From contig JAFTMI010000024.1 of NCBI GenBank assembly GCA_017452505.1, positions 1 through 36,601 on the forward strand: a stretch of 36,601 bases of DNA. Reading direction: 5' to 3'. Under the pieces are notes generated by a model, which had not been told where the DNA came from, ran no database searches, and saw nothing but the letters and a program-made list of their open reading frames with translations. Within the stretch, counting starts at the first letter, position 1, and each line of letters begins with the position of its first letter. Positions 12,733-28,732 of the stretch are shown here, in pieces. Source of the stretch: Oscillospiraceae bacterium. GTDB taxonomy: Bacteria > Bacillota > Clostridia > Oscillospirales > Oscillospiraceae. A program made the translations under genes and the position numbers.

Positions 12733-12814
12733 TCGTAGGGGAGGCATATTATGCCTCCCGCAAGAATTGCGATAACCAACCATTTTCGGGAGGGATAATA
12801 TCCCTCCCCTACAA
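12733..12814. repeat. Nested-palindrome repeat, copy 1 (inverted orientation)
   Basis: Begins TCGTAGGGGAGG and ends CCTCCCCTACAAG. The left arm is the self-palindrome GGGAGGCATA, T, TATGCCTCCC and the right arm is GGGAGGGATA, A, TATCCCTCCC. These are in the opposite order to the other six copies. The arms are separated by about 30 unrelated bases. Confidence 0.9.
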
Positions 12815-21000: not shown

Positions 21001-21082
21001 TGTAGGGGAGGGATAGCATCCCTCCCGCAAGCTTTATGAAAACTGAAATAGGAATGGGAGGCATACTATGCCTCCCCTACGA
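21001..21082. repeat. Nested-palindrome repeat, copy 3
   Basis: TGTAGGGGAGGGATAG left arm with ATCCCTCCC, about 30 unrelated bases, then GGGAGGCATA, C, TATGCCTCCC and CTACGA. It lies between the second chromate-transporter gene and its terminator, so it is inside that transcript's 3' end. Confidence 0.9.
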
Positions 21083-25512: not shown

Positions 25513-25540
25513 TTGCAATTGCGACAAAATATATTATAAT
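25513..25540 (+). promoter_or_regulatory. Promoter of the ADP-ribosylglycohydrolase-like gene
   Basis: -35 TTGCAA (25513-25518), -10 TATAAT (25535-25540), 16-base spacer. Repeat copy 4 would then lie in the 5' untranslated leader. Confidence 0.65.
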
Positions 25541-25554
25541 GTATATAACATATT

Positions 25555-25632
25555 TGTAGGGGAGGGATATTATCCCTCCCGCAAAGAAACCGCAAACTGT
25601 AATAGCGGGAGGCATAGTATGCCTCCCCTACA
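25555..25632. repeat. Nested-palindrome repeat, copy 4
   Basis: TGTAGGG then GGGAGGGATA, T, TATCCCTCCC, about 30 bases, then GGGAGGCATA, G, TATGCCTCCC and CTACA. It lies between the promoter and start codon of the downstream gene. Confidence 0.92.
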
Positions 25633-25661
25633 GAAGATCCTTTAGCACGGGAGGTGGCAGG

Positions 25662-26747
25662 ATGGAAGCGCAATATTACTGCGGCTGTTTGCTTGGCTTG
25701 GCGGTGGGCGATGCCATGGGCTATACGGTGGAAGATAAATCCTGGGATGAGATCCAAACCGAGTACGGCCCGGGTGGCCTTTTAGGCTATGACCTGAAAG
25801 AAGACGAATATGCCCCGGTGACTTCCCATACCCAAATTGCCGCCTTTCTGTGCAATGGCCTGCTGCTGGCGCTGACCCGTGGCAGAAAGGAATATATGCG
25901 CTGGAGCAAGCTGGCGCTGAAGGAATGGACACGAAGCCAGCAGTTCTACCGGGACCCGGAGAAAAGCTATTGCTTCCTGTGTAAGCTGCCCCAGTTCCAC
26001 CGCCGCCATTGCCGGGACGCCCGCATGATGGACAACCATCGCCTGGAGTTCTACGGCTCTATGACCCAGCGGAAAAATATGAACAATACCCCCGGCGCTA
26101 TTACCGCAGGCATTGCCGCCGGTATGCTCTACAAACCCGGCAGGATCACTCCGGAGGGGGTGGGTGAATTGGCAGGTGAGCTGATTGCCTTGACCCACGG
26201 CCACCCGGAAACCTTCCTGTCCGGTGTGGTGCTGTCCTATATCATTGCCGGCGTGCTCCATGACCCCGACCACAGCCTTTCTCAGCATTTTACCCAGGCA
26301 ATCCAGGTAGTAGAGGCCCAGTACGGAAATCAGTTCCCCCAAACGGAAAGACTTTCCATGAAGCTGCGCCGGGCTCTTGACTTGGCGCGCAATGACGCTA
26401 TATCCCCCTTGCAGGCCATGGAGCTGATCGGCTGCGAGGACACAGCAGAGTGCCTTGCCGGTGCTATGTACGCCTGTTTGGTAAATCCGAAAGATTTTGA
26501 CGGTGCGATCATCACCGCCGTGAACCATTCCGGCACCAGCGCCGCTGTGGGCGCTATCGCCGGCGCGATTATGGGCGCCCGGCTGGGCGAGGATGCGCTT
26601 CCGGAGTTCTATTTGGAATCTTTGGAATGCACCGATGTACTGCGGACCTTGGCCCAGGATATGGCCGCCGGAACGCCGGCTTTGGGCATTTTCGACGACA
26701 GTTGGGATCACAAATATGAGCAAGGCTTACCCCCAGAGATCGTATGA
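25662..26747 (+). CDS. ADP-ribosylglycohydrolase-fold protein lacking the metal-binding residues
   Basis: All-helical ARH/DraG-family protein of 361 residues. It keeps the fold markers GCLLGLAVGDAMGY (about 8-21), a TQ-AAFLCNGLLLA helix and NHSG followed by GAIAGAIMGARLG (287-306). Active relatives carry S-D-D-T-Q at the first site and NHSGDSDST at the second. Here the first reads T-S-H-T-Q (54-58) and the second NHSGTSAAV (287-295), so the four aspartates that bind the two magnesium ions are replaced. The frame is otherwise intact and the ATG has GGGAGG. It is therefore probably a non-catalytic ADP-ribose-binding or structural relative. No functional partner is visible nearby. Confidence 0.85.
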   Translation: MEAQYYCGCLLGLAVGDAMGYTVEDKSWDEIQTEYGPGGLLGYDLKEDEYAPVTSHTQIAAFLCNGLLLALTRGRKEYMRWSKLALKEWTRSQQFYRDPEKSYCFLCKLPQFHRRHCRDARMMDNHRLEFYGSMTQRKNMNNTPGAITAGIAAGMLYKPGRITPEGVGELAGELIALTHGHPETFLSGVVLSYIIAGVLHDPDHSLSQHFTQAIQVVEAQYGNQFPQTERLSMKLRRALDLARNDAISPLQAMELIGCEDTAECLAGAMYACLVNPKDFDGAIITAVNHSGTSAAVGAIAGAIMGARLGEDALPEFYLESLECTDVLRTLAQDMAAGTPALGIFDDSWDHKYEQGLPPEIV

Positions 26748-26749
26748 TT

Positions 26750-26825
26750 TCGTAGGGGAGGGATATTATCCCTCCCACAAGCGCTGAAATTACAACAGCG
26801 GGAGGCATGATATGCCTCCCCTACA
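26750..26825. repeat. Nested-palindrome repeat, copy 5
   Basis: TCGTAGGG then GGGAGGGATA, T, TATCCCTCCC, about 24 bases, GGGAGGCATG, A, TATGCCTCCC and CTACA. It begins three bases after the preceding gene's stop codon. Confidence 0.92.
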
Positions 26826-26899: not shown

Positions 26900-26928
26900 T
26901 TGCAAAACGGAAATACTGATGGTATAAT
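26900..26928 (+). promoter_or_regulatory. Promoter of the rimP-nusA-infB operon
   Basis: -35 TTGCAA (26900-26905) and perfect -10 TATAAT (26923-26928), 17-base spacer. Transcription should start near 26935, some 20 bases ahead of a strong intrinsic terminator. Confidence 0.85.
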
Positions 26929-26956
26929 GCTTTTGTAAGGTAAGATTTGACTATGG

Positions 26957-26985
26957 AAAGAGAGGGGTTCGCCCCTCTCTTTTTT
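26957..26985 (+). terminator. Promoter-proximal terminator (attenuator) in the rimP-nusA leader
   Basis: 9-bp stem AGAGAGGGG / CCCCTCTCT closed by a TTCG tetraloop and followed by a T-run. It lies between the operon promoter and the rimP start codon, so full-length mRNA requires readthrough. NusA itself stimulates termination, and attenuation of the nusA operon by NusA has been described in Bacillus subtilis (recalled, not checked). Confidence 0.9.
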
Positions 26986-28660: not shown

Positions 28661-28732
28661 TCGTAGGGGAGGGATATCATCCCTCCCGCAAAGAAGGATG
28701 GTTTCGGGAGGCATACTATGCCTCCCCTACGA
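28661..28732. repeat. Nested-palindrome repeat, copy 6 (inside the nusA operon)
   Basis: TCGTAGGG then GGGAGGGATA, T, CATCCCTCCC, about 20 bases, GGGAGGCATA, C, TATGCCTCCC and CTACGA. It lies between nusA and ylxR in an operon whose order is otherwise tight, so it is certainly transcribed. Confidence 0.92.

Follow-up and report, generated by a model that had tools for sequence, protein, structure and literature searches.

The window, by which we mean the whole 36,601-nucleotide stretch of DNA that was analysed, carries in order a rubrerythrin gene, a divergent Fur-family gene, a gene for a protein of the ADP-ribosylhydrolase (ARH) fold, the run rimP-nusA-ylxR and, further along, infB (named by eye) and rbfA. 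A first-pass annotation had described the frame of the ARH-fold gene as intact and well started, and so it proved, with 361 codons running without interruption from an ATG that lies seven bases after a GGAGG (Table 1). Its product has the all-helical ARH fold and matches PF03747 (ADP_ribosyl_GH) over residues 8-315 at 138.5 bits (E 4.6e-40) against a curated cut-off of 26.2. The same family is matched by 50/50 members of set A2 (E up to 0.001), which consists of the window protein and 49 of the best 80 of 155 relatives from a scan for the clade pattern. Against the DraG equivalog TIGR02662 (NCBIfam), the protein scores 42.9 bits, below the cut-off of 337.05. Within its genome the gene is the sole match to the protein and the sole match to PF03747.

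Table 1. Features at the locus, with positions counted from the first base of the window.
Feature	Position	Strand	Basis
Promoter-like TTGCAA-16-TATAAT 5' of the pseudoenzyme gene	25513..25540	+	consensus match only
REPIN-like pairs flanking the gene, one each side	25556-25631 and 26752-26824
GGAGG, ribosome-binding-site-like, ATG 7 bases downstream	25650..25654	+	sequence reading
Predicted ARH-fold pseudoenzyme CDS, 361 aa	25662..26747	+	open frame, PF03747 match, fold comparison
Former metal site 1, residues 54-58, TSHTQ where intact relatives have SDDTQ	25821..25835	+
Cys104, 103/108 in clade, not in intact relatives	25971..25973	+	alignment
Cys117 (102/108) to Asp119 (107/108), replacing Ala and Gly of RAPGxTC	26010..26018	+
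Residues 139-152, where intact relatives have the SKGCGGVMR loop; window reads NMNNTPGAITAGIA	26076..26117	+
Cys258, 104/108 in clade, not in intact relatives	26433..26435	+	alignment
Former metal site 2, residues 288-296, NHSGTSAAV where intact relatives have NHxGDSDST	26523..26549	+
Promoter-like TTGCAA-17-TATAAT, then terminator-like hairpin, 5' of rimP	26900..26985	+	consensus matches only
Further REPIN-like pairs in the window	12735-12812, 21002-21080, 28663-28730

Because a promoter-like site and a hairpin precede rimP, they suggest that rimP may form its own transcription unit; the promoter-like site stands immediately before the hairpin and together they look like a putative attenuator, although shuffled sequences average 1.8 terminator-like sites where a single one was found. 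Searched at gathering thresholds, no Rfam family matched across the window, and so no RNA leader was found. Each REPIN-like element is an inverted pair of 25-base palindromic half-sites, one of a GGGATA type and the other of a GGCATA type. We counted 12 half-sites in the window (shuffle mean 0.00) and 109 in the genome of 2 Mb, the latter figure including a few that overlap and were counted on both strands. As the same half-site occurs 109 times genome-wide, we rejected the idea that the flanking repeats mobilise the gene.

Comparing the protein with 27 relatives that keep all four metal-binding aspartates, and whose intactness is by choice because they were picked by motifs, we found both metal sites erased. 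These relatives read SDDTQ at site 1 and GD[ST]DST at site 2 where the window protein has TSHTQ and GTSAAV, leaving T54-S55-H56 and T292-S293-A294-A295 in place of the binuclear metal site (DD; DxD[S/T]), so that the initial claim that all four aspartates are gone is borne out. The intact relatives also have in common SKGCG[GT][VI]MR (141-149), RAPGxTC (116-122), VAEE/VGEE (260-263) and THGH (178-181). The first two, on the substrate side, define only this subfamily's 27 intact relatives and not all ARHs, and are absent from the window protein, which reads NNTPGAITA and HCRDARM there; we take the SKGCGGVMR loop to be phosphate-contacting. Across the clade, these four places hold other residues, partly variable and partly new constants (Cys117, Asp119, Met122). 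The further claim that the surrounding residues are conserved thus stands close to both sites but fails more widely, where the SKGCGGVMR loop, RAPGxTC, the site-2 Ser/Thr and Asn302 have been replaced in addition to the four aspartates. G16-D17, T57-Q58 and N288-H289 are kept, and Glu24, His181 and Glu263 are retained in the window protein and lost from most of its clade; since they are still present there, they give no evidence of loss in the window copy. Because the two-metal ligands and the substrate-side motifs are absent, we conclude that the protein is very probably not a metal-dependent ADP-ribosylhydrolase and very probably lacks ADP-ribosylhydrolase activity.

The erasure extends to the whole clade. 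Our alignment of 148 distinct homologues comprised 108 well-aligned clade members, 37 sequences outside the clade and three clade members set aside as degenerate or fragmentary (L030, L238, L239), with site 1 readable in 107 because the fragment L027, counted among the 108, lacks it. Set A1 comprises 26 of 30 loci, leaving out the near-duplicates L008 and L015, the fragment L027 and the degenerate L030. Taken without selection, the 37 outside sequences comprise the 27 with all four aspartates, eight eroded ones and two that are fragmentary (L036) or distant (L038), which were kept out of the outgroup. None of the 107 readable members keeps D55 or D56, the first having become Ser (101) or Ala (6) and the second Tyr (87), His (19) or Asn (1). 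D294 is kept in 0/108, with Ala in 92, Ser in 12, Cys in 3 and Gly in 1. At position 292, Arg stands in 84 members beside twelve other residue types (13 types over 107 sequences), a spread unlike what a single specific new contact would give, while Asp persists in three members (L023, L029, L222) and Glu in one (L232). L029, L222 and L232 sit on the basal branch and L023 elsewhere in the tree; as the three with an acidic residue at site 2 are basal, the pattern suggests that site 1 and the final Asp were lost before the first site-2 Asp. Chance does not account for these replacements, since clade members have them in common. As an observation apart, L030 and L239 have a quite different site-2 segment (NHSG...AVG) in an open frame with rimP downstream.

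The gene is widespread in its genus, which is probably Faecousia. A full-profile search (E 1e-20) matched 112/136 genus genomes and 37/40 of those of good quality (>=90 percent complete, <=5 percent contaminated); because G372 has only the intact-type L241, the clade carriers number 111/136, a count that rests on reading the locus from each and includes the degenerate L030 and L239 and the fragments L027 and L238. By profile search, the clade gene is absent from 25/136, among them the good-quality G021, G392 and G402. Sources, where stated, are mostly ruminants among the best 80 of 155 relatives from the clade-pattern scan, which is biased to the clade. Further afield, matches occur in seven further genomes of the rest of the family (150 searched), in 26/295 of the order (two of them of the window genus) and in 12/291 of the class (the window's own included), and in none of the homologues read from outside the genus did we see the window's replacement set. 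Two observations on gene organisation belong here. Other genus members have neighbouring ARH gene pairs and a frame of 1492 aa in which ARH is matched twice (G001:C20, G367:C22, G024:C21), and L035 (G043) has an intact ARH domain inside an 844-aa frame, between N-terminal and C-terminal parts that presumably resemble microbial PARG and NADAR domains, respectively.

In a tree of 82 chosen rows, a branch with SH-aLRT 100 sets the clade and its two degenerate members apart from all other rows, and the nearest rows in that tree are L177, which belongs to the clade's own family, and an intact group of four (fork support 92). A 20-row clade sample in a tree of 60 chosen rows reached SH-aLRT 99. Nei-Gojobori dN/dS within the clade has a median of 0.18 and a maximum of 0.39 over 401 non-independent pairs, with the window gene at dN 0.002, dS 0.173 and dN/dS 0.014 against L207 and at dN 0.027 and dS 0.496 against L040, and intact relatives have a median of 0.20 (five pairs). 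It is our view that the gene is vertically inherited and near-core in one gut-bacterial genus. The first-pass annotation had proposed a pseudoenzyme rather than a decaying gene, reasoning that aligned homologues would then share the changes at both metal motifs under purifying selection elsewhere and that clade members with intact aspartates would speak against it; the substitutions are common to the clade, no such member occurs among the 107 readable sequences, and the low dN/dS and the single internal stop in 111 genomes, a TGA in G379, likewise support its proposal. That stop and the divergent site-2 segments of L030 and L239 are what random pseudogene decay or an assembly artefact could claim, and we consider either explanation negligible, given that no other clade row of the full-profile search has an internal stop, that dN/dS is low and that the same replacements stand in 108 distinct proteins. 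We therefore rejected decay, the frames being open and neither frequent frameshifts nor dN/dS near 1 being seen across the clade.

New constants appear to have entered the old cleft. Cys104, Cys117 and Cys258 are all present in 99/107 members, and none of them is the consensus in the 27 intact relatives. These cysteines, with Asp119, Tyr/His56, His179 and His289, might form another catalytic or metal site for a different reaction, an idea to which the joint absence of C104 and C258 from all four basal members (L028, L029, L222, L232) also lends something; we nevertheless think it unlikely, because L059, L221, L229 and L237 each lack exactly one of the three cysteines and because the co-variation of C104 and C258 amounts to about one event, the joint difference running mainly through one tree branch. 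Conservation of the cleft was measured in diverse subsets, 32 members for the clade and 22 for the intact relatives. Without the 139-152 loop, the former cleft has a mean entropy of 1.17 bits vs 1.70 elsewhere (permutation p 0.001, 35 positions), whereas residues 139-152, at 1.92 bits vs 1.70 for the rest of the protein, are no better conserved. The whole cleft, at 1.38 bits in the clade vs 0.37 in the intact set, is far less conserved, and as its positions were selected after inspecting which are invariant in the intact relatives, its conservation may be partly structural. We read this as a cleft that has apparently been reshaped yet would still be constrained, with its 139-152 loop released.

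These changes also bear on whether the protein might read ADP-ribose or a NAD-derived nucleotide, keeping binding after losing hydrolysis, as the first-pass annotation had suggested. The shared fold, the kept G16-D17, T57-Q58 and N288-H289 and the Glu24 and His181 still present in the window protein are consistent with such a reader. Against it, the SKGCG[GT][VI]MR stretch has been replaced and RAPGxTC is gone clade-wide, residues 139-152 are unconserved, and known ARHs need both metal ions for correct substrate placement according to the ARH review PMC7050489. The sequences thus do not appear to support an ADP-ribose binder, and we hold that role to be improbable.

The gene neighbourhood raises a different possibility. 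Counting, for 111 distinct members, the nearest of ten searched families within <=700 bases, with representatives named by Pfam, we found rimP downstream in 53, a polysaccharide deacetylase in 21 and bioY in 10, and upstream a same-strand MocR-type GntR-aminotransferase regulator in 42 and a divergent perR in 10; the contig end was reached on 9 upstream and 2 downstream sides, and no searched family was found on 40 and 25, respectively. Measured from match edges, the MocR-type regulator of those 42/111 members mostly lies within about 250 bases upstream. Window-type neighbours were absent from the flanks (about 1.5-2 kb) of the 27 intact relatives and of the four basal members. The linkage of the pseudoenzyme gene to rimP is at most suggestive. 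One could imagine that the ARH fold has become near-core and non-catalytic at least twice in Oscillospirales and that the Faecousia version, encoded beside rimP-nusA-infB-rbfA, is a small-subunit assembly factor or translation-linked scaffold, a bacterial counterpart in kind of the trypanosome mt-SAF23. We regard this as rather improbable, however, since 58/111 members are not beside rimP, with a contig end explaining only two, and in none of the four basal members does rimP lie within about 1.5 kb of the gene. In the window, moreover, a separate promoter-like site and hairpin precede rimP, the second eroded group described below has no such neighbour, the arrangement may be inherited synteny, and ARH3 and DraG are matched far more strongly than mt-SAF23.

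Nor do we find much to recommend a regulator, decoy or immunity protein that acts on an active ARH or ADP-ribosyltransferase, which we judge very unlikely. The pseudoenzyme is the only PF03747 match in 18 of 34 matching genomes (41 searched), the window's own included, a count that rests on MAGs, which are incomplete; because these 18 have only the pseudoenzyme, regulating an active paralogue is unlikely to be what the protein generally does. There was no PADLOC match, and accessory immunity genes are unlike a single-copy, vertically inherited gene. A defence system was accordingly rejected as a candidate.

We thus favour, with a probability of roughly 60%, a vertically inherited, near-core ARH-fold pseudoenzyme that acts by binding through its reshaped old cleft. 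The fold, the loss of residues, the clade and the selection on it come directly from computation. Mechanistically, an ARH3- or DraG-like fold has lost the ligands for both metal ions and its old catalytic cleft would have been remade, with Ser, Tyr/His and Ala for Asp and with Cys104, Cys117, Asp119, Met122 and Cys258 as newcomers; the remade cleft may bind a partner protein or a small ligand other than the original one, with the pseudoenzyme serving perhaps as a sensor, adaptor or scaffold.

A second eroded group occurs in genus g63, of another Oscillospirales family, where 57/60 genomes have an ARH homologue. All 30 g63 loci read (L242-L271) have an incomplete set of aspartates, 10 keeping one, 18 two and 2 three, and none of the ten window-type neighbour families was found in them. 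Sub-groups of this partly eroded group (L138-L145, L242-L271) retain different metal residues. Forcing g63 and the window clade together was rejected by the AU test (p 2.9e-5; 29 vs 31 rows, chosen after the first tree was seen), and the two erosions therefore look separate.

An ARH pseudoenzyme as a kind is already known, from vertebrates, and bacterial pseudokinase families are described in PMC12599244. The literature matches listed, all open-licence papers, dealt with vertebrate ADPRHL1, ADP-ribosylation in general and pseudoenzymes; among them there was no bacterial ARH pseudoenzyme, which is weak evidence of absence. As far as the literature searched shows, what is new here is a genus-wide bacterial case with near-complete erasure, possible intermediates and, in another genus, an independent counterpart. 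Of the four basal members, three still have an acidic site-2 residue and may represent an intermediate stage; together with the intact relatives and the second genus they would allow the transition from enzyme fold to binder to be studied. A genus of animal-gut bacteria keeps, under clear selection, a protein that resembles an ADP-ribose-removing enzyme but lacks the metal-binding residues required for that reaction, and that most likely binds and does not cut. There is an annotation trap as well: because 34/34 genus genomes with a match lie above the PF03747 cut-off despite the lost catalytic set, these proteins would be named ADP-ribosylglycohydrolase.

Set beside known systems, the window protein lacks the metal ligands and the substrate-side motifs of ARH3 (2qty, 2foz) and ARH1 (6g28), as well as the catalytic aspartates of DraG, the dinitrogenase reductase activating glycohydrolase (2woc, 2woe, 3g9d). 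The trypanosome mitoribosome assembly factor mt-SAF23 and ARHL of the Ycf2-FtsHi motor are likewise ARH-fold subunits, in their case of large assemblies, but are eukaryotic and distant from the window protein (15-16 percent identity). The nearest precedent is ADPRHL1 (ARH2), the vertebrate cardiac pseudoenzyme, for which PMC7390403 describes three of four aspartates as lost in mammals and small deletions in the di-arginine loop of the old cleft as abolishing function. Both belong to the ARH family, have lost most metal aspartates and have a conserved, altered cleft. They differ in that ADPRHL1 is a vertebrate protein with a di-arginine loop, whereas the window clade has its own Cys/Asp/Met constants and has lost all four aspartates in 104/108 members (105 if Glu counts as lost). 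The two are probably of separate origin, and the likeness speaks for a similar way of working, not for membership.
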